64,000 nucleotides of DNA from Propionicimonas paludicola (GTDB taxonomy: Bacteria; Actinomycetota; Actinomycetes; Propionibacteriales; Propionibacteriaceae), in contig NZ_PDJC01000001.1 of the NCBI RefSeq assembly GCF_002563675.1, forward strand, positions 2,046,001 to 2,110,000, read 5' to 3'. The translations under genes were made by a program, and so were the position numbers. Positions 4,817 through 62,403 of the stretch are shown in pieces (position 1 is the first letter of the stretch; each line of letters starts with the position of its first letter). The notes below the pieces were generated by a model that saw only the letters and a program-made list of their open reading frames with translations, did not search any database and was not told the DNA's origin.

Positions 4817-4861
4817 GGATTCACATTGCAGGGGGACGCCGTTCAGGCAGCATGTGAATCC
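4817..4861 (-). terminator. Inverted repeat over the adhesin stop codon
   Basis: GGATTCACAT (4817-4826) and ATGTGAATCC (4852-4861) are a perfect 10-bp inverted repeat that spans the TGA stop of the adhesin gene. A second hairpin, CCTGCCC/GGGCAGG, follows within 40 bp. Together they are the best terminator candidates for the 12.7 kb transcript. Confidence 0.5.
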
Positions 4862-7800
4862 TCCTCACGCCGGCGGCGCTTCGGGAGTACCAGAAGCAGT
4901 CCGCCGCCGAGTACAAGGGCGATGGCAACGATCAGCAGGCCGCCGACCTCGACACCGGTGTAGGCCAGATGCCCACCATTCCCACCGCCGTTGTCGCCGT
5001 GGCCGGGATCCTCGGTCGGCTCGACAGTGGTGTTCGCGGCCGGCATGTAGACCCTCGCCTGGGCCTGCGCGCCATTGCCACAGCTGTCGTAGACCGAGTA
5101 GGTCACCCAGCTGCTCCAGCCGCCGAAGCCGGGATTGGGAGTGAACGCCAGACTGCCGTCCGCACTCACCGACCAGATGCCCTCGCTCGGCACGATCAAT
5201 TCGCTGCTCCCCCGGGTCACGGTCGCCGAGATCGACAGTCCGGTGAGGCCGACACTGTGCGGGTCGAGCGTGCAGCCCGCACCGGCGCTGTCGTTGCTGA
5301 GCACCGGCACCGCCACTCCGCCGTACTGCCAGACCTGGACCTGATCGGCTGCCGCGGTCGGCCCGGCACCGATCACCACGGTGATCGTCGCCTCCGCGGC
5401 GGCCCCATTGCGGTCGAGCACCCGATAGCCCACCCGGCCGGTGGCACCAGTGAAGTTCGACTCGGGAGTGAAGGTGACCCGTCCGTCGGCCGCGATCGTC
5501 CAGACGCCTTCGCCGGCCACCTCGAGGCGCTTGCCGGCGTCGGTGGCCGCAGCCGCGGTGAACGTCACCGATGAGGGATCCAGCGGAGCGCTGACATCGC
5601 CGGGCACATCGTTGGCCAGAACGTCGAGGGTCACCGGGTGCCCCAGAGCACCAGTGGTGGCATCGTCGGCCGCGGACGGGGTGACGGCCGAGACCACCAC
5701 ACTGAGCCGAGCCTGAGCGGTGTTGCCGAAGCTGTCGCTGACCTGGTAACCGACGCTGGTGGCCGCGCCCACGAAGCCGGCCAGCGGGGTGAAGGTGATC
5801 TGCCCCGCGGCGTCCGCTCGCCAGGTGCCTTCACCGGCGACCACCAGGGTGCGACCGGCATCGGTGGCCTCGTCGGAGGTGAACGTCACGCTGGCCGGAT
5901 CCAGGGTGCCGCCGACTCCAGCGCCGTCATCGCCGGCGTTGTCGTCGGCGAGCACGTCGATCGTGACTGGCTGGTTGCGCAGCGTGGTGGCTGAGTTGTC
6001 GGTGGCGATCGGGAGCGCACCCACCGTGATCACCAGGGTGGCCGACACCGGAGTGCCGTTGCTGTCACTGACCTGGTAGCTGACCGGATCGGTGGCTCCG
6101 GTGAAGCCGGACGCCGGCGCGAAGCTCACTCGGCCATCGCTGTGGGCCGTCCAGGTGCCCTGGCCGGCGATGCTCAGGCTGAGCCCGTCCGCGCTCGCCC
6201 CGGCCCCGGTCAGCCGGACGCTTCCGGCCACCAGCGGCGTGGTGGCATTACCACCGGCGTCGTTGGCCAAGACGTCCACGCTGACTGCGGTGTTGGCCGC
6301 GGTGTGCCCGGCGTCATCGGACGCGGTGGGCACCACCTGAGTCACATAGCAGCCGACAGTGCCGGTGACCGGATTGCCGAAGCTGTCGGTGACCCGGTAG
6401 CTGAGCGTGGCATGACCGATGAAGCTGGCCTCAGGGGTGAACACCACTCGTCCGCCGGGCTGGACGGTCCAGACTCCCTCGCCGGGCGAGGTGATGCTGG
6501 ACAGGCAGTCCGGGCCCAGGCACACAGTGCCGGGATCGAAGCTGCCGAGCGTGCCGCCGCCGTTATCGCCGGGGACGTCATTGCCCAGCACCGCCAGAGT
6601 GGCCGAGGTGCCCTGGCCGATGGTGGCGGTGTCGGGACGAGTGTGGGAGAGCTGACCGACCGTGACCGTCACCGTCGAGGTGGCGGTGGTGCCGTTGGCA
6701 TCGGCCACCTGGTAGCTGATCGCGCTGGTGGTCCCGACGAAGTCGGCCAGCGGCGTGAAGGTGATGGTGCCGCCGGCATTCACCGTCCAGGTGCCCTGGC
6801 CATCGACGAGCAGCTGAGTGCCGTGTGCAGTGGCCGCCGCGGCGACGATGCTGACCGAGCCGGGCCGCAGTGGCGCACTCGTGGCGCCGGCCTGGTCGTT
6901 GTCCAGCACCGCGACGGTCACTGCCTGGCGCGCCGGTCCGGCACCGTGATCGGTGAAGGCGGACGGCGTGATCGGGGTCACCGTGACGGTGATGGCAGCT
7001 GAGCTGAGGTTTCCGAAGCTGTCGGTGACTTGGTAGTTGGTGACGGCCTGGCCGACGAAGCCGGGGACGGGGTCGAAGCTGACCACACCCGAGCTGTTCA
7101 CCGTCCAGGTGCCCTGCGCAGTGGTGAGTTCGGTGTCGTGGTTCGCGGTGAACATCACGCTGTCGACGACCAGCGAGCCGAAGCCGCCGAAGCCGTCGTC
7201 ACCGGGGAGATCGTCGGAGAGGACGAAGATCGACACATTCTCGTTCTGCGGGGTGCTCACGGCGTCGTCATCGGCCCGCGGCGGAGCGCCGACCGTGATG
7301 GTCAGGGTCGAGTTGGCCGTGGTGCCGTTGGTGTCGGCGATCCGGTAGCCCACGCTCACCTTGCCGCTGACCCCGGCCGCCGGGACGAAGCCGATCCGGC
7401 CCTGGTCGTCCACGGTCCAGACACCGCTGGCATTCGCCAGCCGGCGTCCGCCGTCGGTGGCGGCAGAGTCGACGAACCGCACCGAGTCGGCCACCAGCGG
7501 AGCCGAAGCGGCACCAGGCTGGTCATTGCCGGCCACGTCGGTCAGGCTCGCCGTGCGGAACGGGGTGTGCCCGAAGTCGACGTGCGCCACCGGGACGATC
7601 GGGGTGACCTGCACCGCAGCCGTGCCGTCGGCGGTGTTCCCGAAGCTGTCGGTGACCCGATAGGCCACCGAGGTGGTGCCCAGATAGCCGGGCTCGGGAT
7701 CGAAGCTCAGCGTGCCGTCGGTGGCAACCGTCCAGCTGCCGACGCCGGAGACGGTCAGGCTCTTGCCGTCGGTCGCCGCACCCTGGCCGGTCAGCCGCAA

Positions 7801-10800
7801 GGTGGCCGGATCGATGCTGCCCAGAGTGCCGGTGCCGTCGTCACCAGGGACGTCGTTGGCCAGCGGATGCAGCCCGACGGTCACGTTCTGCGGAGTGACG
7901 GTAGTCGCGTCCGACACTGTTGCCGGCGGGTTGCCGACCGTGATGGTGATGGTCGCGGTCGCGGTCGTGCCATTGACATCAGCGATCCGGTAACCGGTCT
8001 TCGCCTGCCCGGAGAACCCGGCAGCCGGCACGAACCGCACCGAGCCATCCGTGTTCACCGACCAAGTGCCAGCCGCCGTCGCCAACGTCTTGCCGCCATC
8101 AGTAGCAGTGGTCGCAGTGAACCGCACCGAGGTCGGCACCAACGCCGCCGACGCCGCACCGGCCACATCGTTACCGGCCACCGACACACTCACCGGCGTC
8201 CGATACGCGGTATGAGCCGCATCATCAGTCGCGGACGGGACCACCGCAGCCACCACGACCGAGGCCGAGCCGGTCGTCGAGTTGCCGAACGAGTCGGTCA
8301 CCCGATACGACACCGACGCCGAACCCACGAACCCCGGCTCCGGATCCAACCGGACCAAGCCGTCCGCCGTCACCGACCAGGCGCCTACCCCAGCCACTAC
8401 CAACGACTTGCCGTCGCTGGCAGCATCGGCCGAAGTGAACACCACCGAACCCGGAACCAGGCTGCCCACGACCCCGGCGCCATCGTCACCGGCCACATCG
8501 TTGGCCAACGGATCGACAACCACCGCCACACCCTGAGGGGTCGAGCCGGCCGGCTGCACCACCGTGAACGGAGCCGCTCCGATCCGCACCGTCAGCGTCG
8601 ATGACGCGGGGGTTCCGTTGGTGTCCGAGACCCGGTAGGCCACACTCGCCTCGCCAGTGAACCCAGCAGCCGGGGTGAAGCTGACCACGCCACTGGAGTC
8701 TGCGGACCAGACCCCGGCAGCCGTCTGGAGACGACGACCCGTATCGGTGGCGGCCGCATCGGTGAACCGCACCGAACCCGGCACCAAGGCCGCCGACACG
8801 TCACCGGCAACATCATTGGCGACCACGTCGGCCGAAGCCTGGTGAGCGTACGGGGCGTGCGCCGCATCAGGCTTGGCCACCGGGACGATCGGGGTGACGC
8901 TCACCGCAGCCAGCCCGGTCGCGGTGTTCCCGAAGGAGTCCGCGACCCGGTAGGACACCGAGGCGTCACCGGTGAAGCTCGGCACCGGAACGAAGTGGAG
9001 CTCGGCTCCGGACACGGTCCAGGTGCCGACTCCCGCCACGACCAGGGACGACACCGCGTCGCCGGCGACGTTGAGCAGGACCAGGCTCGACGGATCCACC
9101 GAGCCGACCAGGCCGGTCCCGTCGTCGCCGGGCAGGTCATTGGTGGCCGGGGTCAGGCTGGTCGCGATCCCCTGCTTCGTCGTTGCGTGGTCGGTCGCCG
9201 TCACCGGCGCGGTGCCGACCGTGATCCTGATCGTGGCAGTCGCGGTCGCCCCGTTGGCGTCGGCGATCTGGTAGGTCGTGGTCGCTGCTCCGGTGAAGTC
9301 GTTGGCCGGCACGAACCGCACCGAGCCGTCCGGGTTCACCGACCAGGCGCCCTGCGCGGTGACCAGCTTGGTCCCGCCGCTGGTGGCCGTCGGTAGGGGG
9401 AACTGAACCGAGGCGACCACCAGCGGAGCCGAAGCCGCTCCAGGGGTGTCGTTGCCAGCCACAAGGACGCTCACCGGCGTCCGGAAGGGGGTGTGACCGG
9501 CATCGTCGAGAGCGACCGGGACGATCGGAGTGACCCGCACCGCAGCGGTGCCGGTCGCGGTGTTGCCGAAGCTGTCGGCAACCCGGTACGCCACCGAGGC
9601 GGTACCGAGATAGCCGGGCTCCGGATCGAAGCTGAGCGAACCGTCATCGGCCACGCTCCAGGTGCCCACCCCGTCCACAACCAACGTCTTGCCATCGGCA
9701 GACGCCTGCGGATCGGTGAAGACCACGCTGCTGGGCACAATCGTGCCGGCCACGCCGGCTCCATCATCGCCGGCCACATCATTGGCCAACGGATGCAGGG
9801 CAACCGTGACGTTCTGGGGGGTGCTCACGATGGCGTCCGGGACGGTCAGCGGAGCCCGTCCGACGGTCACCGTCACCGACGTTGACGCTGAGGTTCCGTT
9901 GGTGTCCGAGACCCGGTAGCTCACGCTCGTCTCGCCGGTGAACCCGGCGGCCGGAGTGAAGCTGACTACGCCACTGGCATCCACCGACCAGACCCCATCG
10001 GCCGTCTCGAGCCGGCGACCGGCATCGGTGGCAGCCGCATCGGTGAACCGCACCGAACCCGGCACCAACGCTGCCGACACATCACCGGCGACATCATTGG
10101 CAACCACATCGACGCTCACCTGATGAGCGAAAGCAGCATGGCCCTCGTCGGCGACTGCGGTAGGCCGGATCGGAGTGACCGTGGCCGCTGCGGTGCCGTC
10201 CGCGGTGTTGCCGAAGCTGTCGGTCACCCGGTAGGCCACGCTCGCATCGCCGGTGAAGCCGGGCTCGGGGTCGAAGGTGATCGTGCCGTCGAGATTCACC
10301 GTCCAGCTGCCGACGCCGTCCCTGACCAGCTTCTTGCCGTCGGCGGACGCCCCGGCGCCGGTCAGCACCAGGCTGGCCGCGTCGATCGAGCCGAGCACGC
10401 CGGCGCCGTCATCGCCGGCCACGTCATTGGGCAGCGGGTCGAGGGAGACTGTGATGTTCTGCGGGGTCACCACCGCTGCCTGGGGGACGGCATGCGGCGG
10501 CTGGCCGACGGTCACCGCGAGCTGGGCGCCCGCCGTGGTGCCATTGGCATCAGCGATCCGGTAGTCCACGGTGGCCACGCCGGTGAAGGTCGCCGCCGGG
10601 GCGAACCGCACAGAACCGTCCGCGCGCACCGACCAGGTGCCCTCCTCGGTGGCCAGCGTGGTTCCGTGGTCGGTGGCCGCCGCGTCGGCGAACCGCACCG
10701 AGGTCGGCACCAGCGGTGCCGAAGCGGCACCCGGAGCATCGTTGTCGGCCACCGGGACGATCACCGGGGTCCGGAACGGCGTGTGGCCGGCATCGTCGAA

Positions 10801-13800
10801 AGCGACCGGGACGATCGGAGTGACCCGTACCGAGGCCGTGCCGGTCGCGGTGTTGCCGAAGCTGTCGGCGACCCGGTAGGCCACAGAGGTGGTGCCCAGG
10901 TAGCCGGGCTCGGGATCGAAGCTGAGCGAGCCGTCGGTGGCCACGCTCCAGCGGCCGACTCCGTCGATCACCAGCGCCTTGCCGTCGCTCGAAGCCGCGG
11001 CATCGGTGAAGACCAGACTGCTCGGCACGATCGAACCGGCCGCGCCCGCGCCGTCGTCCCCGGCCACGTCATTGGCCAGTGGATGCAGCGAGACAGTGAC
11101 GTTCTGCGGGGTGGTCACGGTGGCGTCCGGGACGGTCACCGGGGCTTGCCCGATGGTCACCGTTGCGGTCGCGGTCGCCGTGTTGTCGAAGCTGTCGCTG
11201 ACCCGGTAGTCCACCGAGGCGGCACCGGAGAAGCCGGCGGCCGGGGCGAAAGTGAGCGCGCCGGTAGTCGGGTTCACGGTCCAGGTGCCGTCCTCGGTGA
11301 CCAACTTCTTGCCCGCGGCGGTGACGGCGTCGGCGTCCAGGACGACACTGGCCGCCACCAGGCCGCCCAGTTCGCCGTCGCCGTCATCGCCTGCGGTGTC
11401 ATTACTCAGTACTCCGACGACCACCGGGTGTCCGAAAGCCCCATGAGCAGAGTCATCAACGGCGGAGGGGGGAAAACCGCTGGTGATTCTGATCAGCGCA
11501 CGCGCGTGGGTGAGATTGCTGTCGGACACCCGGTACTCGACCGGAGTTGTCGGGCCTTGGAAGCCCGACACAGGGGTGAAAGTGACCTTGCCGGTCGACG
11601 AATCGATCCGGTAGGTGCCTTCGCCGGCGACGCTGAGCTCGCGCCGGTCGTTCGTGGCAGCAGCGTCGGTGAAGATGACACTGCTGGACTCCAGCGGAGC
11701 TGACACAGCCCCGGGAGCGTCGTTGGCGATCACGTCGAGGACGACCGAATGGCCGAACGCTCCGTGCGCCGAATCGTCATGGGCGGTCGGGGTGATCGCA
11801 GTCACCGTGACCGAGGCCACCGCGTCCGCGGTGTTGCCGAAGGAGTCGGTGACTCGGTACGCGGCCGCCGAGGTGAGCCCCACGAAGGACGGCAGCGGAT
11901 CGAAGCTGACCGCGCCATCGGCCGCGATGGTCCAGGTGCCCTCACCGGCCACCACCAAGCGCTTGCCCTCGTCCTGCGCAGAGCCGGAGGTGAACACCAC
12001 CGACGCCGGACGCAGCTCGCCGGCCGCACCGAGGCCGTCGTCACCGGCGGAATCATTGGCCAGCAGGCTGAAGCCCACGGTGGTGTTCTGCGGGGTGGTC
12101 GCGGTGTCGTCGAAGGCGTGCGGCGGCAGGCCGACCCGCACCGACAGCGACGCCTGGGCGCTGCGTCCGAGCTCGTCGGAGACCTCGTAGCTCACCCACG
12201 GGACCGAGCCGAAGAAGCCGTCAGCCGGAGTGAAGGTGATCGAACCGTCCGCAGTGACGCTGAAGGTGCCGACACCGTCCAGCACCAGGGTCTTGCCGGC
12301 ATCGCTGACGCCGGAGCCGCTCAGCCGGACCGAACCGGCCTGCAGGGTGGCCAGCGCACCGGCCCGGTCGTTGGCCAGGACGTCCGCCGTGACCGGGGTG
12401 CCGAACGCGGTGTGCACGGCGTCATTGGCCGCGGTCGGGGCAGCAGGAGCGACCACCTCAACCGACAGGACCGCGGTCGCCGAGGTGCCGTTGGCGTCGG
12501 AGACCTGGTAGCCGACCGCACTGGTCGTGCCCTGGAAGCCGGCGGCCGGGGTGAAGGTCACCACGCCGTCGACCAGCTGGTAGCTGCCTTCACCGGGGAC
12601 GGTCAGCTTGGTGCCGTTCTCGGTAGCGCCGGCGGCCAGGAACTTCACGCTGCTCGGCACCAATGCTGCCGAGTCCGCGCCCGGCCGGTCATTGGCCAGC
12701 AGATCGACGCTGACCGCGGTGCGATAGGTGGTGTGCGCCTGATCGTCGGCCGGCTGCGGCCGGATCGGGGTGACCGTCACCGAAGCCAGGGCGGTGGCGG
12801 TGTTCCCGAAGCTGTCGGTGACCCGGTAGGAGGTTGCCGCGGTGCCGAGGAAGGTCACCTCCGGATCGAAGCTGATCCGGCCGTCGCTCTCCACGGTCCA
12901 GGTGCCCTGGCCGTCGACGACCAGCTTCTTGCCGGCTGCGGTCGCCGCGCCCGCAGTGAGTACGACGCTGGCGGCCGCCAGGGTGCCATGGCCGCCCGCG
13001 CCGTCGTCACCGGCGGCGTCGTTGGAGAGTACGTTCAGGACGGCATCCACGTTCTGCTGGGTGCTGGTCGCATCGGCATGGGCCTGGGGAGCCGCCCCGA
13101 CCGTGACGGTCAGGTTCGCGGTGGCCGAGGTGCCGTTACGGTCGCTGATCCGGTAGGCCGCAGTGGCCAGCCCGGAGAAGCCGTCCGCCGGGTCGAAGGT
13201 GATCCGGCCGTCGCTCTCCACGGTCCAGGTGCCCTGACCCGTGCTCAGCCGAGTGCCGGCACCGGTGGCTGCCGGGTCGGTGAGCTTCACGCTGCTGGGG
13301 ACCAGCGGAAGATCATCGGCGCCGGCCGCGTCGTTGCCGATCACAGTGGTGGTCACCGCGGTCTGGAAGGGGGTGTGCCCGGCATCGTCGGCGGCCGTGG
13401 GGGTGACCGCAGCGATGGTGACACTGATCGTGGCCGTGTCGCTGTTCAGCTGATCGTCGGTGACCCGGTAGTCCACCCGGGCCGTGCCGGTGAAGCTCGG
13501 CTCGGGGACGAACTGCACCTGGTGGTCGGTGCCGATGGTCCAGGTGCCCTGGCCGGCGACGACCAGGGTCTTGCCGCCGTCAGTGGCGCCGGGCGCCGTG
13601 AACACCAGGGTGGCCGGGATCAGGCTGCCCGGGGTGCCGGCCCCGTCGTCACCGGCCGTGTCATTGCGCAGCGCGTCCACGCTGACCGGATGGCCCTGGG
13701 TGGTCGCACCGAAGTCGTCGGCGGCGTTCGGTGCCGTCCCGATGGTCACGGTCAGGGTGGCCGTGGTGGTGGTGCCGTTGAGATCGGCCACGCGGTAGCG

Positions 13801-16800
13801 GACCGGGCTCGCTGCACCGGTGAAGCCGGTAGCCGGAGTGAAGGTGATGGCGCCGGAGGTGGCGTCCACGGCGTAGCTGCCGTCCGCGGTGACCAGGGTC
13901 TTGCCGGCGGTCCCGCCGGTGCCGAGCAGGACGACGCTGAAGGCGTCCAGCGGTGCGCTGGGGTCGCCGGCCAGGTCGTTGCCGAGCACCGGAACGGTCA
14001 CCGGGTGGGCGAAGGCACCGTGGCCACGATCATCAGCTGCCACCGGGGTGACCGGGGTGACGGTGAAGGTGACCGTCGAGCTCACCGGGTTCCCGAAGGA
14101 GTCGGCGACCGAGTAGGACGCCGTGGCCTCGCCGACGAAGGAGGGGTCCGGATCGAAGGTGATCCGGCTGTCGGCCTCGACCCGGTAGCTGCCGTGCCCG
14201 CTGGAGGTACCCAGCTGCACCGGGCCGAAGCTGCCCGGGTGCCCGGCGCCATCGCTGCCGGGGACGTCGTTGGCCAGCACGTCGACGGTGATGTCGTGGT
14301 TCTGCAGTCCGGTGCCGGCATCGGCGGTCGCGGACGGAGCCGTCCCGACGCTCACCGAGAGGGTGGCGGTGGCCACGGTGCCGTTGGCGTCGGCCACTCG
14401 GTAGCCGGTGCTGACAGTGCCGCTGAAGCCGGCCACCGGGGTGAAGGTGATCTGGCTGCCCGAGACCTTCCAGGTGCCCTTGCCGGCAACCGCCAGGCTG
14501 CCTGAGGCGGTCGCCGGGTCGGTCAGCGCCAGGCTGCTCGGCACCAGGGCGGCCGACGGGTTGCCCGCGTCGTTGACCAGCGGGCTGAGCGTTGCCACAT
14601 GGAGGTACGCGACGTTGGTGGCGTCGTTGGTCGCGCTCGGCACCACGGCCGCGATCGTGACAGTCACGGTGGCGGTGGCGGTCTGGCCGAGATCGTCGGC
14701 CACCTGGTAGGTGACCGGAGCGCTGGCACCCACGAAGGAGGCTGCCGGATCGAAGGTGATCTTGCCGTCGGTGCCGACCCGCCAGGTGCCGTTGCCGGTG
14801 GCCAGGGTCTTGCCGTCGGCGGAGACACCGCTGCCCTGCAGCCGGACCGAGGTCGGGTCGAGGACGGCGGTCCCGCTGGCGTGGTCATTGGCCAGCACGT
14901 CCACCGTGACGTCCTGATTCTGCAGCCCGGAGCCGGAGTCGTTGGACGCGGTCGGAGCCGGCGGACCGGCCACCGTGATGGTCAGGGTCGCGGTGTCGGT
15001 GGTCTGGTTGGTGTCGGCGATCCGGTACGTGACCGGTCCGGCCGTGCCGACGAAGCCGGCGGCCGGGACGAAGGTGACCACCCCGGCGTTGTTGATGGTG
15101 TAGCTGCCCTGCGCCGTGCTCAGCGACTTGCCGCCATTGGTGGCCGACGCCGAGGTGAAGACCACACTGGAGGGCACCAGCGGAGCCGACGAATCGCCTG
15201 CCGAGTCGTTGGCGACCAAGTCGATGGTGGTGGACGTCCGGTAGTTGGTCGAACCGGCGTCACTCGTGGCGTCCGGGACGATCGCGGTCACGGTCAGCTT
15301 CACCGTGGCGGTCGCGGTCAGCCCGTGGCTGTCGGTGAGTTGGTAGTGCACGGCCGTGGCACTGCCACTGAAGCCGGGCAGCGGATCGAAGGTCAGCACG
15401 CCGGCGGCATCGATCGTGTAGCTGCCCTGGCCGGCCACGGTCAGGCTCTTGCCGTCGGTGGACGCACCGGCGTCGGTGAACTTCAGCGAGGACGGGACCA
15501 GCGTGTACTTCTCACCAGTGCCGGACACCCCCGCGGTGTCGTTGGCCAGCAGGTTGATAGTGGCGTTGACGTTCTGCTTGGTGGTGGCTGCGTCGTCTCC
15601 GGCGGTCGGGACGGTGCCGAGCTTGGTGGTCACCTGGTTGGCCGAGGCGGAGTCGAGCTTGGCCGCGCCGGCGGAGCTGGTGCCGGTGACCCCGGCGGTG
15701 TTGACCACCTTGCCCGCGGTGACGTCCGCGGCCGTGACCGAGTACGGGTTGGCTGAGCAGGTGGTGGAGGCTCCGGGGGCGAGCGTGGTCGCCTGGCAGG
15801 TCTCACCGGCGAGCAGCGGGTCGTCCACGCCGGCTCCGGTGATCTGGACGTTGCCGGTGTTGGTCAGCGTGAAGGCATAAGTCAGCTTGTCACCGACCAC
15901 GAAGGGGTTGCCGCTGGTCAGGGTCTTGACCAGCTTGAGCTGCGGGGTGCGGGTGATGGCGACCTCGACGGTGTCAGTGTCGGTGACCGAGCCGGCCGCG
16001 CCTTCACCGTTCGGCGGGGTCGCCACCACCGAGACGGTGTTGGAGACCTTGCCGGCCTCGACGTCGGACTGCAGCACGGTGTAGGCCGCCGATGCCGTGC
16101 AGGTGGTGGACTTGCCCGGATCCAGCGAGGTGACCGGGCAGCTGATCGTCGCCGGGGCCAGCTTGGGGTCGCTGAGGGCGATCCCGGTCAGGGCCCGGTT
16201 GCCCACATTGGTGACGGTGAAGGTGTACTTCACCTGATCGCCGGCCTTGGTGGGGGTGCCAGTGGCGTTCTTGACGACCTGGATCGCCGCCTTCTTCGCC
16301 TCATTGGTGAAGGTGCAGGTGATGTTGTCGCCCTTGCCGTTGTCGTCCGCGGCTGGGGCGGTCAGGCTGAACGACGTGCCGTTGCCGGCGACGGTTCCGG
16401 TCCGCGATCCGGTGCAGGTGTAGGAGCTGAGATAGTTGCTCAGGTTGGTGGTGCCACTGGCCGCCTCGGCCATCTGGTAGGACTCTCCGGCGATCACCAG
16501 CACCGGGCCGGCCGTCACACTCTGCACGCCGGTCGCGGTGCCGGTCGTGGTGGCCGACTTGCTGACCTTGGTGCCGGTCATCGTCAAGGTGAACTGGTCG
16601 GTGCTGGCCGCACGACTGACCACGTTCTTCTGCAGCGCATAGACCACGGTCGGCGTCGCGCAGGAGCCGAGGTCGGCCAGGCGGGTGCTGTAGCTGGTGG
16701 TGATGGTCTGCTCGACCGCGCCGGTGGACGGACGCGCCTTCTTCAGCGAGGTGCCCGCCGACAGGTACAGGAAGCCGTCGGAAGCGAAGGCCATGCCCGG

Positions 16801-17544
16801 GTAGCCGCCGTTGGAGGCGTCCAGCTTGGACAGGGTCACACCCGGCGGATCAGTGCGGGTCAGAGCGTCCGCCGTGTACAGGCGCACTTCGCCGACCGCA
16901 TTGCTCGGCGACACGGCCAGGTACAGGTTGCCCTGCGAATCGAAGGCCATGTCGGCATTCGAGGAGCCTGGCACGGTGACGTTGAACCGGAAGGTGACGG
17001 CTCGGGTCGACGGGTTGATCGAGTACGCCCAGAAGGTGTTGCCGGACGCCGTGCCGCCCACCCAGTACTGGCCGGTGGTGGGATCGACCGCACCGGCCAG
17101 GAAGGTGCCGATTCCGGTATTGAAGCCGCTCAGCGAAACGGCGGCGTCGCCGGTCCCGGAGGAGTCGCGGTAGAGGTACATGTTCGCGGTGCCGTTGGTG
17201 GCCGGGCCCATCGCGTAGGCCAGGTCGCCGGCCGCGTCGATGCCGAGGGCGTTGATCGAGGTGGTTCCGCTGCCGAAGCTGCCGATCTTGGTCCAAGCGC
17301 CGCTGGGCGCGGTGAACCGGATCAGGGACGCGTTGTCGGCCGACACGGTCTCGCCGGCCCGCAGGCCGTAGACGTACGTGCTACCACAACGAATATCGCC
17401 TGCTGCCGCCTTTGCCGGAGCAGCAGGTCCGTAGACAATCGCCCCGACGGCCAACAGCAGACTCATGAGCAGGGCAAGGCCATTACGCAGACCCGTTGCA
17501 GGGCTGGGCAAGGCAAAGTCACCTGAGGGAATGAGCGCCATCAT
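4843..17544 (-). CDS. Giant CshA-type fibrillar surface adhesin with LAxTG sorting signal
   Basis: A single uninterrupted frame of 4233 residues. Order of parts: signal peptide (hydrophobic core near residues 20-40, cleavage likely after AKA); a region of about 280 residues that looks like a beta-propeller; a short Cys-containing prealbumin-like domain; two DUF7507/DUF11-type conserved repeats (near 425-640); then about 33 repeats of roughly 100-110 residues up to about 4171. Each repeat has an ND..GD..GAG segment, a GTW/GTF strand, FDP/FTP..F.G and Y.V.DS.GN, the pattern of CshA-type fibril repeats. The C-terminus has a Gly/Asn-rich linker, LAYTG, a hydrophobic helix and KRRRR, a class E (LAxTG) sortase signal. 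GAGG precedes the ATG. The protein is probably a wall-linked adhesive fibril; no sortase gene lies in the window. The ligand is unknown. The repeats alternate between two types, discussed in the findings. Confidence 0.93.
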   Translation of the reverse strand: MMALIPSGDFALPSPATGLRNGLALLMSLLLAVGAIVYGPAAPAKAAAGDIRCGSTYVYGLRAGETVSADNASLIRFTAPSGAWTKIGSFGSGTTSINALGIDAAGDLAYAMGPATNGTANMYLYRDSSGTGDAAVSLSGFNTGIGTFLAGAVDPTTGQYWVGGTASGNTFWAYSINPSTRAVTFRFNVTVPGSSNADMAFDSQGNLYLAVSPSNAVGEVRLYTADALTRTDPPGVTLSKLDASNGGYPGMAFASDGFLYLSAGTSLKKARPSTGAVEQTITTSYSTRLADLGSCATPTVVYALQKNVVSRAASTDQFTLTMTGTKVSKSATTTGTATGVQSVTAGPVLVIAGESYQMAEAASGTTNLSNYLSSYTCTGSRTGTVAGNGTSFSLTAPAADDNGKGDNITCTFTNEAKKAAIQVVKNATGTPTKAGDQVKYTFTVTNVGNRALTGIALSDPKLAPATISCPVTSLDPGKSTTCTASAAYTVLQSDVEAGKVSNTVSVVATPPNGEGAAGSVTDTDTVEVAITRTPQLKLVKTLTSGNPFVVGDKLTYAFTLTNTGNVQITGAGVDDPLLAGETCQATTLAPGASTTCSANPYSVTAADVTAGKVVNTAGVTGTSSAGAAKLDSASANQVTTKLGTVPTAGDDAATTKQNVNATINLLANDTAGVSGTGEKYTLVPSSLKFTDAGASTDGKSLTVAGQGSYTIDAAGVLTFDPLPGFSGSATAVHYQLTDSHGLTATATVKLTVTAIVPDATSDAGSTNYRTSTTIDLVANDSAGDSSAPLVPSSVVFTSASATNGGKSLSTAQGSYTINNAGVVTFVPAAGFVGTAGPVTYRIADTNQTTDTATLTITVAGPPAPTASNDSGSGLQNQDVTVDVLANDHASGTAVLDPTSVRLQGSGVSADGKTLATGNGTWRVGTDGKITFDPAASFVGASAPVTYQVADDLGQTATATVTVTIAAVVPSATNDATNVAYLHVATLSPLVNDAGNPSAALVPSSLALTDPATASGSLAVAGKGTWKVSGSQITFTPVAGFSGTVSTGYRVADANGTVATATLSVSVGTAPSATADAGTGLQNHDITVDVLANDVPGSDGAGHPGSFGPVQLGTSSGHGSYRVEADSRITFDPDPSFVGEATASYSVADSFGNPVSSTVTFTVTPVTPVAADDRGHGAFAHPVTVPVLGNDLAGDPSAPLDAFSVVLLGTGGTAGKTLVTADGSYAVDATSGAITFTPATGFTGAASPVRYRVADLNGTTTTATLTVTIGTAPNAADDFGATTQGHPVSVDALRNDTAGDDGAGTPGSLIPATLVFTAPGATDGGKTLVVAGQGTWTIGTDHQVQFVPEPSFTGTARVDYRVTDDQLNSDTATISVTIAAVTPTAADDAGHTPFQTAVTTTVIGNDAAGADDLPLVPSSVKLTDPAATGAGTRLSTGQGTWTVESDGRITFDPADGFSGLATAAYRISDRNGTSATANLTVTVGAAPQAHADATSTQQNVDAVLNVLSNDAAGDDGAGGHGTLAAASVVLTAGAATAAGKKLVVDGQGTWTVESDGRISFDPEVTFLGTAATSYRVTDSFGNTATALASVTVTPIRPQPADDQAHTTYRTAVSVDLLANDRPGADSAALVPSSVKFLAAGATENGTKLTVPGEGSYQLVDGVVTFTPAAGFQGTTSAVGYQVSDANGTSATAVLSVEVVAPAAPTAANDAVHTAFGTPVTADVLANDRAGALATLQAGSVRLSGSGVSDAGKTLVLDGVGTFSVTADGSITFTPADGFFGSVPWVSYEVSDELGRSAQASLSVRVGLPPHAFDDTATTPQNTTVGFSLLANDSAGDDGLGAAGELRPASVVFTSGSAQDEGKRLVVAGEGTWTIAADGAVSFDPLPSFVGLTSAAAYRVTDSFGNTADAVASVTVTAITPTAHDDSAHGAFGHSVVLDVIANDAPGAVSAPLESSSVIFTDAAATNDRRELSVAGEGTYRIDSSTGKVTFTPVSGFQGPTTPVEYRVSDSNLTHARALIRITSGFPPSAVDDSAHGAFGHPVVVGVLSNDTAGDDGDGELGGLVAASVVLDADAVTAAGKKLVTEDGTWTVNPTTGALTFAPAAGFSGAASVDYRVSDSFDNTATATATVTIGQAPVTVPDATVTTPQNVTVSLHPLANDVAGDDGAGAAGSIVPSSLVFTDAAASSDGKALVIDGVGRWSVATDGSLSFDPEPGYLGTTSVAYRVADSFGNTATGTASVRVTPIVPVAFDDAGHTPFRTPVIVPVADNDAPGAASAPLVPTSVRFADAAATDHGTTLATEEGTWSVRADGSVRFAPAATFTGVATVDYRIADANGTTAGAQLAVTVGQPPHAVPQAAVVTPQNITVSLDPLPNDVAGDDGAGVLGSIDAASLVLTGAGASADGKKLVRDGVGSWTVNLDGTITFDPEPGFTGDASVAYRVTDSFGNTADGTAAATVTPIRPTAVADEGHAAFAHQVSVDVVANDVAGDVSAALVPGSVRFTDAAATDAGRRLETADGVWSVDASGVVSFTPAAGFTGETSVSYRVSDTNGTSASTSVTVTVGRAPLTVPDAIVSTPQNVTVALHPLANDVAGDDGAGVAGTIVPSSVVFTDPQASADGKTLVVDGVGTWSVADDGSLSFDPEPGYLGTASVAYRVADSFGNTATGTAAVRVTPIVPVALDDAGHTPFRTPVSVLVAGNDTPGAASAPLVVASVQFPLPTATSGGTKLVTAQGAWSVNPDGSVRFVPANDFTGAATTTYQIADANGATATATIRITVGTAPVTATDHATTKQGIATSLTPATNDLPGDDGTGLVGSVDPSSLVLLNVAGDAVSSLVVAGVGTWTVSGAELHFVPVPSFTGDASVSYRVADSFGNTATGLAAVSVTPIVPVAKPDAAHAPYAHQASADVVANDVAGDVSAALVPGSVRFTDAAATDTGRRLQTAAGVWSADSSGVVSFTPAAGFTGEASVAYRVSDTNGTPASSTLTVRIGAAPFTVVQPAGSTPQGVAVVVDPLANDVAGDDGAGVVGSLVPGSVVFTSADAASDGKSLVVAGVGAWSVTADGLVRLDPEPGFVGSASVSYRVTDSFGNSTTGSASVVVAAVVPSATDDAAHTAYRTPVSVSVAGNDVAGAASAALVPTSVRFTATTATDGGKTLATAAGTWSVNTDGSVRFVPAAGFSGQAKTGYRIADVNGTTATATITITVGNPPATVSDATTVTPQNVTVGLHPLANDVPGDDGTGTLGSIDPATLRLTGQGAATDGKSLTVSGVGSWTVATDGTLSFDPEPGYLGTTSVAYRVTDSFGNTADGTAAVQVTPIVPVAHVDFGHTPFRTASLTDVAGNDQPGAASAPLVADSVRFVDSAATDGGRRLANASGVWTVDDQGRIGFVPAAGVSGKVSVGYRIADTNGTTANSTLTITVGAPPRADDDAVSTPQNENVSIFVLSDDLPGDDGFGGFGSLVVDSVMFTANHDTELTTAQGTWTVNSSGVVSFDPVPGFVGQAVTNYQVTDSFGNLSSAAITVTVTPITPSAFTDHGAGPARQAVTVAVLDNDQAGATSAPLRPGSVSIVAAAATAHGTQLLVDGQGTWTVNAGGTITFTPLADFVGTTSAISYQVADANGTTATSTVTVTVGQLSHTRPDTATIGQGTSATLAVLGNDVPGDNGGGTLGSFDPGTVCLGPDCLSSITSPGEGVWTVQPGGRVVFTPEASFIGHATLSYRVTDSFGNPVTGTVGCYVTQVVPTASDDAGHTAANTAVSVDVLANDAGGNATTPLVAGSVRLTGAGASADGLSLSIAGQGTWTAHSDGRVSFAPASGFTGATDPVSYQVSDSNGTPVSATLVITVGALPIATDNSATTLRNQPVTIDVLADDNAGDDGAGVGGTLDPASVTFTSDEATDAGRTLVVAGEGTWRADAAGQITFTPLAGFVGAATSVGYQVSDSFGNTAQARLSVVVSAVTPSAADDATTGALGHPVTLDVLANDVPGDVSAPLDPSSVTFTAAAATDAGKRLEVAGEGVWTIAADGRVTFTPESNFTGATGRVGYRVLDRNGAAAEATITVVIGAGPTAAADQVQVWQYGGVAVPVLSNDSAGAGCTLDPHSVGLTGLSISATVTRGSSELIVPSEGIWSVSADGSLAFTPNPGFGGWSSWVTYSVYDSCGNGAQAQARVYMPAANTTVEPTEDPGHGDNGGGNGGHLAYTGVEVGGLLIVAIALVLGGGLLLVLPKRRRREEDSHAA
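5032..15620 (-). repeat. About 33 tandem CshA-type coding repeats (~0.32 kb each)
   Basis: Coding repeats of about 105 codons, counted by eye from the translated protein. Two types alternate. Type A carries QN..GDDGAG and ends in DSFGNT. Type B carries DDAGHT..SAPLVPSSV and ends in D.NGT. A four-repeat block of about 1.28 kb recurs: repeats 15-18 (about 9880-11157) resemble 19-22 (about 8595-9880) closely, and 23-26 more loosely. Coordinates of single units are approximate. Confidence 0.85.
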
Positions 17545-55958: not shown

Positions 55959-58900
55959 CTACTTGACGGTGACCTTCCAGGTCTTCGTCTTGCCACCGGC
56001 CTTGATGGTGATCGTCACGGTGCCCTTGCCCACCGCAGTGAGGCGGCCCACGCGATCGACATCAACAACGGCGTACCGCGAGGACGAGTAGGTGACCTTC
56101 ACCCCGGTCGCCTTCGACGAGGCGTACCGGGCGCCGGCGAATGCCACCTGGCCCACCGTCATCGTCTTCGGAACCGAAGCGGTGATGCTGGTCACCTTCG
56201 ACTTCGGCTTCGACCCGACGACATTCACCGTGATCTTGACCGACAGGGTCTTGCCAGCGGCAGTCTTGTCGATCGTGGTCGCAGTGATCGTGGCACTTCC
56301 CGAACCCTTGCCGGTCACCTCACCGCGGGACGACACCGTCGCCACCTTGGTGTTCGACGAGGTCCAGATGACCTTGCCGGAGTAGGCGGACGGCAGACCG
56401 TCGGCGTAGTCCACGGCCTCATCGAGGTCGAGGGTCTTCCCCTTCACCACCCGAGCCTGAACCTGATTCAGAGTCAGCTTGGTGACGGTCGGGGGAACCA
56501 CGACGGGTACCTCGACCTCCTTGGGCGGGTTCAGAACCAGTCCGGCGATGGCCGCGTTCAGGCTGGAGACAGCCTCGTCCACGTCGTCCTGCGTTGCCGA
56601 GCTGTCGTCAGCGACCTGCCGGGCGTTGGTGAGCGCCTGCTGGAGCGTTGCCCACGATGCCGCGGTGTAGCGGTCATCGGCATTGGACATCGTCCCTGCG
56701 ACCGAGGTCGCGTTCCTCAGCACGCCCGTGTTCACCGGCACCGGCTTGAGCACCAGCCCCGACAGTGCCGTGGTCACGGCGCTGGTGGCCTGGTCGATCT
56801 CCACCTGGGTCGCCGCGGCCTTGTCCAGCACGGTTTCAGCACTGGCCAGGCTCGACTGCAGAGCCGACCAGGACGTCGCCGTGTAGACATCGCCGGCATT
56901 CGAGACCGCAGCCGCAGCATCGTGGACGTTCCGGAGCACCGACTTGTCCGGTACCGCCGGGGCGACCTCAAGGCCGGACAGGGCTGTCGCCAACTCCTTG
57001 GCGGCCTGGTCCACCTCCGCCTGGGTAGCGGAGGCGTTCTCCAGGACCGTCGAGGCCTGGGAGATCTCGGTCTGCAGGGCATCCCACGTCGTCGACGTGT
57101 AGCGTCCCGACGAGTTCGACAACTCACGGGCCTCGTCGTAGACGTGCTTGAGGATGCTCTTGTCGATGACCGGAGCCTTCACCTCGAGGCCCGACATCGC
57201 GGTGCGCAGGGCGTCCGCAGCCGTCTTGAGCTTGTCGGGGGTCTGGTTCTGATCAGCAAGAACCGTCTTCGCCGCCGCCAACGCGTCGGTGAATGCCGAC
57301 ACTGAAGCCGTGGTGTAGCCACCGAGCTTGCCGGCCAGGCCGTCCGCCACTGCGACCAGCGCCTGCAGCACCGACGGATCGGCACTCGCCTTGACGGTCA
57401 CCGGGATCGACTCCGACACCGCGTTTCGGGTGCCATCGGTGATCGTCACCGTCAGATTGGCGGTGGCGTCGGATCGAAGACCGGTGTTCACGACTCCGTC
57501 ATCGCTGATGACCTGCTGGTTGCTGGACTTCAGCGACATGGTGTAGCCGTGCGGCACCGGAATGTCGAGGTCGGCGTCGGAGTGGATCTCGGCGGGGATA
57601 TCCGCCGCGACGTAGTCGCGCACATTATCGACAGCGTCCTGCAGCATCTGCTGATAGGACTTCTGCTGAACACCGTTGAGATCGGTCACCGTGAGGTACT
57701 CGAAGTAGGTGTTCATCTGGGTTGCGGTCGAGTTCTGGGTCGCGAACAGACCGATCTTCGGATCACGGAAGTTCACCCCGGAGACCGGGTTGCCGATCTG
57801 GGTGTAGTTCTCACCGTCCTGGGAGTACCCCAGCGTGTAGGTGGTGTTGTTCTTGATGATCCTGAGATACAGCGTCACCGAGCCGTCGGCACTGGCAACG
57901 GGGTTAGCGCTGCCGAGGCCACTGAACGAGCCGTTGTTCTCCCAGCCGGGCTGGATCTGGAGCGAACTGGTCTGGCTGTTCAGCCGGATGTAGTTGTCCT
58001 CGTCCTGCCAGACCAGCAGCATTGCCTGCTGGTAGTTGGCCGTCGGCTTCTGCGGGTAGAACAGCTTGGCGACAACCTCCCAGTTACCCATTGCCGGTTG
58101 AGTGACCACGTTCTCCCAGGCCGGACCGGCCGCCCCGTAGATGTCGTAGCGCTGCGTCGGCAGTCGGAGACCAAGACCCTTCTCGGTGGAGTAGGTGGCC
58201 TGGTTCTCGCGCAACACCGTCCAGTTCGAGCTCTTCGTGCCATCGGCGAAGTAATCCGAGCGCGGACCGGAGTTGAAGCTCACCGTGTAGGTGACGCTTG
58301 TTGCACCGGTGGAAACCGTCACTGCGGCGGTACCACGGGGGGTGGTCATCTGGTTGTAGGTCACCGAGAAGGCCGGGTCCGTCACCGTTGCGGCGATCAC
58401 CGGCACCTCGGTGGCGTCGGCGCTCACCTCCTGGTTGTAGCTGAACACCTCCGGATCGAAGCCTGCCACCGGAGAGCCATTCACGCTCAGCGAGGACAGC
58501 CGTGGGTACAGCTCCGACAGCGTGAAGATCGACACCTTGGCGTAGGTGGCCGAGATGGCCGCTGCCGCGGTGTCCCCGCTGGTGGCGTACAGGCCCAGCT
58601 GCGGCAATGCGTAGTACGCGGAGACCGACGTGGCCAGGCTGGACCAGGTACTGCCGTTCGTCGAGTACTTGTAGGTATAGGAGTCACCCTGCTTGACGAC
58701 CTGGAAGTAGACCGAGGTCTGCGAGGCCAGGTTCGCCGAAGCGGTCTGGGTCTGCACACCGTTGACCACGCTGTACACGCGGACGACGTTGGTCGAGCCC
58801 GAGGTCGGCCGCTCGTAGACGAACCGGGTGTAGTTGGTGTCGGTGTCGTACACCACCACGCCAGCCTGCTGGTTGCTGGCCGTCGGAGTGGCGGCAAGCT

Positions 58901-61900
58901 TCACCTGCGTCTGGGCAACCCAGTCACCGGCAGCTGCGTTGAGCAGGACGTTCTGCGGTGGCGTGGCCGTGCCGAACGCTCCCCTCTCCGTGGTGATCGT
59001 CAACCCACCAGGCCCATAGGCCGCCTGGGTGGACGGATTCTTCATCGTCCAGCCCGCACTGGTGGCGCCAGTTTCACCTTGGGTGAGGTCGACGGTTGTC
59101 GGCCGATACCCGATTCCCACCCGGTAGGTGGCGGTGGCCCCACTGACGTTGTTGGTCGCCACGATCGTGGTGACACCCGGCAGCGAGGACGGCGGGGTGA
59201 CCACGGTGGTGACATCCGAGTTGGCGTTCACAACGCTGACGTTCGGAATGGTCGTCGTGCCTGCCGGGACCTCGATCGAGTAGTTCAGGCGATCGGGCTT
59301 GAAGTTGGCGACCGAGTTGCCGTCCACCTTGATGCCGTCGATGTACGGCGTCGAGACGACGTAGACCACGAACTCCCCAGAGGCCGACTTACCGTTGTAG
59401 GTCGCCGTTGCGGTGATGGTCGCCACGCCGGGGGCGTTGGTCGTGATCACTCCATTGGTGACCGAGGCGACCGAGGGACGGTTGGAGCTGTAGCTGAAGG
59501 TCATGCCGTCGGGGAACGGGGTGCTGGCCTTCTTCATGATCTTGCTGCTCTGCTGCTTGATGATGTAGCCCCACAGGCTTTCATCGCTCAGCGAGACAGT
59601 CAGCTTGGGATCAACGGTCTCGCCACGATCGAAGATGAGTCGCTCCTCGATACCCAGCTCGGCATCGCCGGTCTGGCTCGGCTTGGCGGTGACCACAGCC
59701 GGGACAGCCGTCATCGCACCGGACACGCTGAAGTTGCCGGAGAGCGGGACGGAGGCGCTGTTGCCACCGACCTGGACCTGGTAACCACCCTTGTCAACGA
59801 CGTTTCGGTCGGTCGCCTCGTCGTAGAACGCCAGATCGGCGACCTTGACGTCGAGGGTGACGGTCTTGGTCTCGCCCGGGGCGAGCTCCACCTTGTCGAA
59901 GCCCTCAAGGCGCTTGATCGGGCGCTTCAGTTCGGCCGGGGCGTCCGGCTGCGCGACGTAGAGCTGCGCAGTTTCCTTGCCGCGGACCGAGCCGGTGTTC
60001 TTCACATCGAAGGAGACCGTCACGGTGTCGTCAGCAGTGAAGTCGCTGGTGGCGGATGCGCCCTTGGCGATCTTCAGGTTGGAGTACTCGAAGGTCGAGA
60101 AGCTCAGCCCATAGCCGAACGGGTACGACGACGGCCCCGTGTAGTACATGTAGGTGCGTCCCTGCTTGCCCTCCGACGGGTACAGGTCGTAGTCGAGGAT
60201 GCTCGGGATATCGGACGCTCCGGTGTCACTGACCGTCTGGTACCAGGTGTCAGTGATCTTGCCCGAGGGGTTGACCTTGCCGGTGATCACATCGCCGAAG
60301 CCAACCTTGCGGTTGCCGAGGAAGCTGGACCACAAGATGGCCGACACGTCATCAGCGAACTTGGTGACCTGCATCGGGCCGGCGGTCTCCATGACCGCAA
60401 CCGTCTTCGGGTTCAGCTTGCCCACGTTGGAGATCAGGGTGTCCTGCCCGTTCGGGAGCGCGGTGCTGGTGCGGTCGCCATCCTCCTTGGAGTAGCTCTC
60501 GTTGGTGCCGGTCACGACAATCACAGCATCCGCGGCGGAGATCGTGGCCTTGTCGGCATCCGACAGGGTGTAGGAGCTTGCCGAGGTGGAGTTGCCGTAG
60601 GTGGTCAGGTAGCTGAAGGTCGCGCCCGGGTTCTTCTCGGTGATGTTGCTGGCGATCCGCTGCTGGATGTTGATCCGGTTGGTGGAGTCGCTCTGGCTCG
60701 CCGAGTACAGACCGAGGTAGCCGTTGGTCTGCCAGGCCCCCACGATGGCCACCTTGTAGTCACCGGTGGAGGGCACTGCGAGCGGCAGGATCGAGGTCGA
60801 GGAACCGGACGGGGCCGCGTTCTTCAGCATCACGACCGCTTCGGCGTTGACATCGTCGATCATCTTCAGACGCTCAGGGGTCTGCCAGCCGATGCTGCCG
60901 GACTGGGCCGCAACTCGCTGGGCAGCCTGCGAGGTGTAGGCGTTGTTGGCATCCCACTCACCGGTCTCCATGCGGGCTTGCATCAGCCGCTGCAGGGAGA
61001 TGTCCACCTGGTTCTCGGTGAACGTGCCCTTGTCGGTCGTGACGCCCTGGGCGAGCATGTTCGCCATGTTCGTGTTGTAGGTCCCGGTGCCGCTGGTGTA
61101 GCCGCCGCTGCACTCCAGGTCCATGGCATGCGCCATGGCCTGTGACAACTGCTCGATGGTGGTGAGCACCTTGCCGGTGTACGGGTTGGTGAAGTTGTGA
61201 CGCTTGATCGTCGAGACGGAGTCGCAGTCACCAGTGGTGTACCCGTTGAGGCCATAGGTCTGGCGCAACAGGGTGTCGTTGAGGTAGCTGCTCCAGGAGC
61301 TCGGATCGCCGTTGAGGGTGCTGTAGGCGCCCATCACCGACGAGGCGTTGGCGTCCTGAATGATGTCGCGGTAGGGCACCGCGTAGTACTCACGCAACGC
61401 CCGCATCGACGTCTTGGCTCCGCCATCCAGGCGGTTGCGCTCGCTGTTGTTGGCGACGTAGTGCTTGATGGTCGCGTTGACCTTCTTCATCCCGTTCACC
61501 AGGGGGACGCCATTGCGGTCGGCTCCCTGGATGCCCTGGACGAAGGCACTGCCCATCTTGCTCATCAGGAACGGATCCTCGGAGTAGGACTCCTCGTTGC
61601 GTCCCCAGCGCGGGTCGCGGTGCAGGTTGACCGTCGGCGAGTACATGGTGAGGTTCACCGCGTTGCCGAGGTTGGGCGCCCCAGCCGTGGTGATCTTGTT
61701 GGCCCGCTCGCGGACCTCGTCGCCGATCAGGCTGGCCTCGCGGTAGTACAGCTCCGGATTCCAGGTGTTACCCACCGAGGTGCTCTGCGGGTAGGAGTTC
61801 GAGTTCGTGACGTTGCCGCGCGCGTAGCCGTGCAGCGCTTCCTGCCACCAGTTGTAGCCATTGATGCCCGTCGTGGCGGGGACGCCTGTAGCGCCGACGC

Positions 61901-62138
61901 CAAGAGCGGCCGCGCCGATCGCAGGGGCATTCTCGCTGTACATCTGGGAGCCCTTTTGGGTGGCGGTCATCCGGCCAACCAGGTCAGCTGCACGCTCCGC
62001 GTAGCTGTAGCTCGAGTCCATGTAGATGGGAGTTGCCGGCGTGCCGCCGCCGTCCTCCGCCTGCGCCAGCTGCGTCGGGATCAGCCCCACGCACAAGCTG
62101 AGCGCAAGGGCCATCGAGACCCTCTTGAAATTCTTCAC
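55959..62138 (-). CDS. Secreted multi-domain GH3 glycosidase with lectin and FIVAR modules
   Basis: 2059 residues from a GTG at 62138, chosen because KNFKR plus a hydrophobic core and AQA-ED form a complete signal peptide and GGAGG lies upstream. ATGs at 62174 and 62228 are alternatives. Order: GH3 N-domain with GYTTGDCDSV (nucleophile about Asp304), GH3 C-domain with KEDGDRTSTALPNGQ, Fn3-like domain (about 700-800), an Ig-like domain (about 880-930), beta-sandwich domains, two concanavalin-like modules (about 1016-1206 and 1291-1486), four FIVAR-type helical repeats (about 1590-1880), and two Big2-like domains to the end. GDCDSV resembles GH3 beta-xylosidases. No LPxTG is present; retention may depend on FIVAR/Ig modules. 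Substrate uncertain: a plant or host glycan is likely. Confidence 0.92.
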   Translation of the reverse strand: MKNFKRVSMALALSLCVGLIPTQLAQAEDGGGTPATPIYMDSSYSYAERAADLVGRMTATQKGSQMYSENAPAIGAAALGVGATGVPATTGINGYNWWQEALHGYARGNVTNSNSYPQSTSVGNTWNPELYYREASLIGDEVRERANKITTAGAPNLGNAVNLTMYSPTVNLHRDPRWGRNEESYSEDPFLMSKMGSAFVQGIQGADRNGVPLVNGMKKVNATIKHYVANNSERNRLDGGAKTSMRALREYYAVPYRDIIQDANASSVMGAYSTLNGDPSSWSSYLNDTLLRQTYGLNGYTTGDCDSVSTIKRHNFTNPYTGKVLTTIEQLSQAMAHAMDLECSGGYTSGTGTYNTNMANMLAQGVTTDKGTFTENQVDISLQRLMQARMETGEWDANNAYTSQAAQRVAAQSGSIGWQTPERLKMIDDVNAEAVVMLKNAAPSGSSTSILPLAVPSTGDYKVAIVGAWQTNGYLGLYSASQSDSTNRINIQQRIASNITEKNPGATFSYLTTYGNSTSASSYTLSDADKATISAADAVIVVTGTNESYSKEDGDRTSTALPNGQDTLISNVGKLNPKTVAVMETAGPMQVTKFADDVSAILWSSFLGNRKVGFGDVITGKVNPSGKITDTWYQTVSDTGASDIPSILDYDLYPSEGKQGRTYMYYTGPSSYPFGYGLSFSTFEYSNLKIAKGASATSDFTADDTVTVSFDVKNTGSVRGKETAQLYVAQPDAPAELKRPIKRLEGFDKVELAPGETKTVTLDVKVADLAFYDEATDRNVVDKGGYQVQVGGNSASVPLSGNFSVSGAMTAVPAVVTAKPSQTGDAELGIEERLIFDRGETVDPKLTVSLSDESLWGYIIKQQSSKIMKKASTPFPDGMTFSYSSNRPSVASVTNGVITTNAPGVATITATATYNGKSASGEFVVYVVSTPYIDGIKVDGNSVANFKPDRLNYSIEVPAGTTTIPNVSVVNANSDVTTVVTPPSSLPGVTTIVATNNVSGATATYRVGIGYRPTTVDLTQGETGATSAGWTMKNPSTQAAYGPGGLTITTERGAFGTATPPQNVLLNAAAGDWVAQTQVKLAATPTASNQQAGVVVYDTDTNYTRFVYERPTSGSTNVVRVYSVVNGVQTQTASANLASQTSVYFQVVKQGDSYTYKYSTNGSTWSSLATSVSAYYALPQLGLYATSGDTAAAAISATYAKVSIFTLSELYPRLSSLSVNGSPVAGFDPEVFSYNQEVSADATEVPVIAATVTDPAFSVTYNQMTTPRGTAAVTVSTGATSVTYTVSFNSGPRSDYFADGTKSSNWTVLRENQATYSTEKGLGLRLPTQRYDIYGAAGPAWENVVTQPAMGNWEVVAKLFYPQKPTANYQQAMLLVWQDEDNYIRLNSQTSSLQIQPGWENNGSFSGLGSANPVASADGSVTLYLRIIKNNTTYTLGYSQDGENYTQIGNPVSGVNFRDPKIGLFATQNSTATQMNTYFEYLTVTDLNGVQQKSYQQMLQDAVDNVRDYVAADIPAEIHSDADLDIPVPHGYTMSLKSSNQQVISDDGVVNTGLRSDATANLTVTITDGTRNAVSESIPVTVKASADPSVLQALVAVADGLAGKLGGYTTASVSAFTDALAAAKTVLADQNQTPDKLKTAADALRTAMSGLEVKAPVIDKSILKHVYDEARELSNSSGRYTSTTWDALQTEISQASTVLENASATQAEVDQAAKELATALSGLEVAPAVPDKSVLRNVHDAAAAVSNAGDVYTATSWSALQSSLASAETVLDKAAATQVEIDQATSAVTTALSGLVLKPVPVNTGVLRNATSVAGTMSNADDRYTAASWATLQQALTNARQVADDSSATQDDVDEAVSSLNAAIAGLVLNPPKEVEVPVVVPPTVTKLTLNQVQARVVKGKTLDLDEAVDYADGLPSAYSGKVIWTSSNTKVATVSSRGEVTGKGSGSATITATTIDKTAAGKTLSVKITVNVVGSKPKSKVTSITASVPKTMTVGQVAFAGARYASSKATGVKVTYSSSRYAVVDVDRVGRLTAVGKGTVTITIKAGGKTKTWKVTVK

Positions 62139-62403
62139 AGTGCCCAAGACCTCCGTCTGAGTGATTGCTGCCATGCCGGAAACCCATGACGCCGGCACCA
62201 CGGCGAGATCTCCTGCGGGCACGCGCAATGGCCGCTGGCGATCGATGACGTGATGCGAGTTGGCCTCTTCTCCGCTGAAGTGGTCAGGGTGTTCGCGAGC
62301 AGTTGCCGAGTGCCCTCTGTTGGGCAGACAACCCTCTACGACCGAGCGTCAGTGCCATGAAATCCTCACCCCAGAAAACGGGGTGCAATTAGGGCACGGC
62401 CCT

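Follow-up and report, generated by a model that had tools for sequence, protein, structure and literature searches.

How can a protein built of dozens of tandem domains change its length and still keep neighbouring domains dissimilar? One gene raises this question in a 64,000-nucleotide stretch of the Propionicimonas paludicola genome (contig NZ_PDJC01000001.1, positions 2,046,001 to 2,110,000). We refer to the whole stretch as the window and count coordinates from its first letter. The open reading frame (ORF) list and translation place the gene at 4843..17544 on the minus strand, from the ATG at 17544 to a stop codon at 4843–4845. An earlier note on this DNA had described an intact frame of 4233 residues at exactly these positions, and the frame was found as described, with the strand corrected here to minus. 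We consider it quite probable that the product is a class-E-sortase-anchored, adhesin-like fibrillar surface protein, with a propeller head on a stalk that is built of repeat pairs (dyads) and was lengthened by dyad insertion.

Two alternating repeat classes in the stalk

The stalk spans residues 645–4168 (5041..15612, minus strand). Segmentation divided it into 33 CshA-type repeats of 96–110 residues, in line with the roughly 33 counted before. PF19076 matched it in 33 stretches (1051.8 bits, cut-off 27) and TIGR04225 in 32 (1077 bits, cut-off 60), both above the curated cut-offs by which a stalk of tandem CshA-type repeats is recognized. Mean protein identity between repeats was 0.43–0.48 at even offsets and 0.38–0.41 at odd offsets, and every even offset up to 16 exceeded any odd one. 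The even-minus-odd contrast of 0.061 was never reached when the repeat order was shuffled (shuffle standard deviation 0.006, p ≤ 0.0002). The A/B alternation claimed in the earlier note is thus a periodicity far above chance, and its evolutionary unit of two repeats (about 210 residues) is supported; the alternation is not perfect, being interrupted at R3, R11, R14 and R33.

From R1 to R14 the classes run A B C B A B A B A B C A B A', where A' is a hybrid; strict A B order follows up to R32, and R33 is a terminal, C-like repeat. A repeats have an extended GDDGAGxxG loop, a QN motif and a DSFGN end, and B repeats have SAPL, YRT/FxTPV and a DxNGT end. R3 and R11 represent a third type, C, with a short loop. 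We assigned the C and hybrid labels from inspection of the alignment; the automatic A/B score alone puts those repeats near zero. The hybrid R14 (11149–11475) has a B-like start followed by an A-like loop and end, is kept at the same position in relatives, and looks like the product of an ancient within-domain recombination. The terminal repeat R33 (5041..5367, minus strand) belongs to a separate type and corresponds to repeat 17 in the relatives (centred similarity of 1.54 to that position). A structural model of four repeats was an extended chain of beta-sandwich domains, with a predicted local distance difference test (pLDDT) score of 95.5 per domain and a predicted template modelling (pTM) score of 0.74. 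A Foldseek search with this model retrieved an RTX adhesin tetra-tandem (E 7e-18) as well as cadherin and titin arrays.

The two classes were also recovered beyond this protein. A tree built from 102 repeats required 4 label changes for A and 4 for B, compared with 28–30 in shuffles. Alternation was significant in five Kribbella-like arrays (p ≤ 0.001) and in two Nocardioidaceae-like arrays (p 0.005 and 0.0015), the family names being inferred assignments. When A/B profiles trained on the window's genus were applied to repeats of these other families, they scored them alternately in seven arrays of 11–17 repeats (p 0.0004–0.0072); one array with poor segmentation (L117) and two with too few repeats (L120 and L121) were left out of these tests. 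Six Bacilli (streptococcal-type) arrays, five of them with an LPxTG end within the DNA examined, showed no significant alternation (p 0.06–0.92), which indicated that alternation is not general among CshA-type stalks. In three of these Bacilli arrays (L126, L127 and L130), similarity peaked at offset 4 (0.67–0.73, compared with 0.53–0.63 at offsets 1–3), a superperiod that is a different mode of block growth. An approximately unbiased (AU) test of a single against a double origin of A and B between the window's genus and Kribbella rejected neither (p 0.82, 0.65). The wider matches of an N-terminal search (Nocardioides, Amycolatopsis, Streptomyces and others) had no such CshA arrays in the DNA examined there, and TIGR04225 at E ≤ 1e-17 across 396 genomes of the phylum returned the source genome only, a cut-off too strict to be informative. 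In the literature searched, with partial coverage, we found no account of A/B alternation in CshA-type stalks. The case for the domain content and the alternation, as read from the sequence, is strong, and so is the case that the alternation is ancient and common to at least three families of the window's order.

A conserved frame and one expanded region

Relatives were compared between species, with one genome per species. R1–R14 (11149..15612, minus strand) make up the conserved N-terminal part of the stalk. The sister species (G001), a partial array (G007) and two complete relatives of the same genus (G011 and G013) have the same class order for repeats 1–14, including the C repeats (3 and 11) and the hybrid (14). 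Within-class similarity was higher than expected at the same position across relatives (p = 1e-4), indicating positional orthology. Where the flanks lay within the DNA examined, the relatives' gene adjoins pth (upstream) and/or mfd (downstream), a shared neighbourhood that suggests vertical inheritance.

The two complete relatives have 17 repeats each, of which repeats 15, 16 and 17 are A, B and the terminal type; R32 and R33 of the window match their positions 16 and 17. The 16 extra repeats of the window protein equal eight A/B dyads. They fall in the expanded region R15–R32 (5368..11148, minus strand), where class order, per-repeat scores and the tree gave nine A-B dyads versus the one A-B pair of the complete relatives. 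This layout onto 17 positions was based on class order and per-repeat scores; an automatic alignment with a simple gap score placed R13–14 poorly. The sister species has orthologs of R1–14 and R19–33, 29 repeats in total and one four-repeat block fewer than the window. The counts were 17, 17, at least 19 (G007, over two broken contigs), 29 and 33, all odd, as predicted by dyad steps from 17. These comparisons argue strongly for a conserved frame, made of repeats 1–14 plus the closing triplet of A, B and the terminal type, with apparent insertion between its parts. Eight dyads would have entered there through unequal recombination within the gene, together with gene conversion, each step leaving adjacent repeats unlike one another. 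To this extent the earlier note's proposal that the array grew unequally, block by block, is supported.

The same note had singled out R15–18 and R19–22 as close copies from a recent four-repeat amplification. R15–R18 (9859..11148) and R19–R22 (8578..9858, both minus strand) were the best four-repeat block, with a mean DNA identity of 0.741 (p = 0.002 when repeats were shuffled separately among odd and among even positions). The block is thus beyond chance, but the copies are not close: the per-pair identities were 0.82, 0.75, 0.61 and 0.79, and R17 was closer to R15, R19 and R25 than to R21. R23–R26 (7288..8577, minus strand) showed the weaker resemblance that had been noted (0.65 to R19–22 and 0.67 to R15–18). 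Longer blocks of 5, 6 or 8 repeats were no better than chance. The sister species retains R21 (8893–9213), a divergent A repeat (VTATDHATTKQGIATSLTPATND), even though the repeats next to it resemble the first block.

The age of the block was judged against the sister species, which retains R19–22. Identity between R19–22 and the orthologous block was 0.85 at codon positions 1 and 2 and 0.60 at position 3; the greater divergence at third positions was counted as evidence for a gene. Between R15–18 and R19–22 of the window, third-position identity was 0.65, similar to the divergence from the sister species. In the middle of the block (end of R15 to R17), R19–22 is nearer to the sister species than to R15–18, indicating that the middle was duplicated before the species split. 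At the block edges (R15/R19 and R18/R22), the two window copies are nearer to each other than to the sister species, which suggests later gene conversion. Three measures led us to reject a recent duplication: the DNA identity of the copies, their third-position divergence and the length of exact repeats. Exact direct repeats in the gene reach 37 bp at most, so that frequent slippage is not expected now. Tandem Repeats Finder (TRF) with periods up to 500 found nothing.

Head, neck and probable wall anchor

The protein begins with a putative signal peptide, recognized by reading the sequence (residues ~1–47, 17404..17544, minus strand, as are the features below), which consists of a hydrophobic stretch and an AKA-A cleavage-like site. 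The N-terminal head (residues ~55–296, about 240 residues, 16657..17382) is a predicted six-bladed beta-propeller. Its AlphaFold2 model (pLDDT 84.6) resembled E. coli YjiK (VIA-align Z 14.4), the nidogen propeller (13.8), LRP6 (13.3) and designed six-blade SAKe proteins (12.9). A Pfam scan of the whole protein matched no known adhesin head family to the head and contained no CshA_NR2 (PF18651); this domain had no match in the source genome either, and the control genomes were likewise without a match. The neck between head and stalk consists of a SpaA_3 prealbumin-like domain (PF20674, E 6e-21; residues 303–415, 16300..16638) and two DUF7507 (DUF11-like) domains, both found by PF24346 (two stretches) and TIGR01451. 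The first covers residues 419–514 (16003..16290) and the second, with approximate limits, residues ~535–635 (15640..15942), where TIGR01451 matched at 548–580.

At the C-terminal end (4846..4968), sequence reading identified HLAYTG, whose LAYTG motif lies at 4954–4968, followed by a hydrophobic, predicted transmembrane stretch and a KRRRR tail. LAxTG is a class E sortase signal. The LAYTG end matches NF058583 (LAXTG) weakly, under that model's cut-off. A class E sortase is encoded in the source genome (NF033747, 255 bits, cut-off 160) and is found in most of the window's genus. The protein combines two marks of fibrillar adhesins, a long stalk of repeated beta domains and a predicted sortase-recognised wall anchor. 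Wall anchoring and a rod shape are likely, the latter from the structural model and the known relatives. The protein would be secreted and then attached to the cell wall by the class E sortase, and the rod of 33 Ig-like CshA-type domains would hold the propeller head and the SpaA/DUF11-type neck away from the cell, so that the head is most likely projected from the wall. We infer that it may take part in adhesion, ligand binding and fibril formation.

Two further genes were observed. In relative G011, a sortase gene that is not class E by cut-off lies immediately upstream of the orthologous adhesin (G011:C17:26585-26989). The window also encodes a second giant surface-type protein of 2089 residues at 55959–62228 (minus strand), with a GH3 glycosidase with an Fn3-like domain, two GH43_C2/DUF1349 concanavalin-like stretches, four FIVAR domains and Big_2.

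Role of the alternation and comparison with known systems

Could the long frame, or its number of repeats, be an artefact of assembly? Assemblies often break at repeat arrays, and the sister genome does so here: contigs C11 (end of L021) and C21 (start of L022) break exactly at the R14/R15 border with an identical overlap of 62 bp, a hint of an unresolved repeat in that genome. A search for a copy of R15–18 elsewhere in that split assembly found its best matches within the known array and no extra contig. The source genome, however, is a single 3.26-Mb contig, the frame is uninterrupted, the repeats are divergent enough for unique assembly, and the sister species independently encodes R1–14 and R19–33. 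An artefact is very improbable. A second explanation holds that the gene encodes a Periscope-type protein, whose highly identical repeats make its length change often from strain to strain, as a recent four-repeat amplification would imply. CshA is itself listed among Periscope proteins (PMC8201768), repeat number differs across species, and R15–18/R19–22 is a genuine block. Against this, the block copies are only 74% identical in DNA and 65% at third positions, exact repeats are as short as reported above, and neighbouring repeats are 38% identical in protein, compared with 82–100% between repeats of the SHIRT Periscope array (PMC8201768). We consider this explanation unlikely.

Large multidomain proteins usually hold adjacent domains below 50% identity, which limits misfolding (PMC8201768; PMC4660218). 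Neighbouring repeats in the window protein agree with it (mean protein identity 0.38, maximum 0.52; the best DNA identity is 0.61 between neighbours and 0.82 at any distance). The alternation of two ancient, distinct classes would make the A-B dyad a heritable building unit, and may serve to avoid misfolding between like neighbours, to form a dyad interface, or both; adding whole dyads could then change length while respecting the neighbour-identity rule. The alternation may instead merely record growth by dyad duplication, with no structural or folding role. Dyad duplication alone preserves alternation, the extra A and B repeats of the window's lineage cluster among themselves on the tree, and direct neighbours show no clear added dissimilarity. 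On the other side, A and B remain separate in three families, where their signatures and order are the same, which argues for constraint, and the classes were not homogenised despite conversion-like tracts. We give such a growth record an appreciable chance, somewhat short of even.

Several observations weigh against our preferred reading of an anchored protein with a dyad-built stalk lengthened by dyad insertion. Repeats at offset 1 differ from each other scarcely more than A and B repeats far apart in the array do, and no clear selection against like neighbours was seen beyond class; avoidance of misfolding is accordingly offered as a hypothesis. The model positions A relative to B with only moderate confidence (pTM 0.74). 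There are no near-identical DNA repeats today, hence no direct sign of ongoing recombination. The count of 29 in the sister species depends on two contigs whose junction falls at the block boundary, and a lost or collapsed block is possible. Bolder, and put forward only tentatively, is the proposal that in actinobacterial CshA-type stalks the real unit of folding and assembly is the dyad, its classes kept distinct by selection and alternately placed. If it is true, the rod could lengthen or shorten by whole dyads at a single site of expansion and never bring like repeats together, and the dyad stalk would solve the misfolding problem that Periscope proteins reportedly break. In the public models PF19076 and TIGR04225 the CshA repeat is a single unit, whereas in the taxonomic order of the window it behaves as two classes, alternating in at least three families. 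This alternation lends itself to testing why adjacent domains stay unlike in very large tandem-domain proteins and how these proteins still change length, and the conserved frame with its single expanded region gives a simple rule for predicting where such stalks should vary in length.

Streptococcal CshA has an NR1-NR2-NR3 plan with 17 repeats and is a fibronectin-binding fibrillar adhesin with an LPxTG anchor (PMC10952558). The window protein shares its PF19076/TIGR04225 repeats of about 100 residues and its plan of head, stalk and sortase anchor; it differs in lacking CshA_NR2 and in its predicted propeller head, LAYTG anchor and A/B alternation. The former label of CshA fibril protein fits the stalk but not the head, and with NR2 absent the protein, judged by its domains, is not a CshA orthologue. 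In Bacilli arrays neighbours are up to 0.6 identical and alternation was not detected in the six read. The Kribbella-like and Nocardioidaceae-like proteins share the repeat family, the A/B alternation and C-terminal sortase-like signals; the arrays read there have 11–17 repeats rather than 33, and the Kribbella-like ones differ in their N-terminal region, which has a GEVED-like motif. RTX adhesin, cadherin and titin rods share the predicted extended tandem beta-sandwich architecture and differ in sequence family and anchoring, and a common fold is no evidence of common function. The Periscope proteins Sgo_0707, SasG and Rib (PMC8201768) likewise form tandem-domain rods whose repeat number varies between relatives. 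Their DNA repeats are highly similar and change fast, whereas those of the window protein are divergent, with neighbours within the <50% rule; by the criterion of high repeat-DNA identity it is not a Periscope protein.

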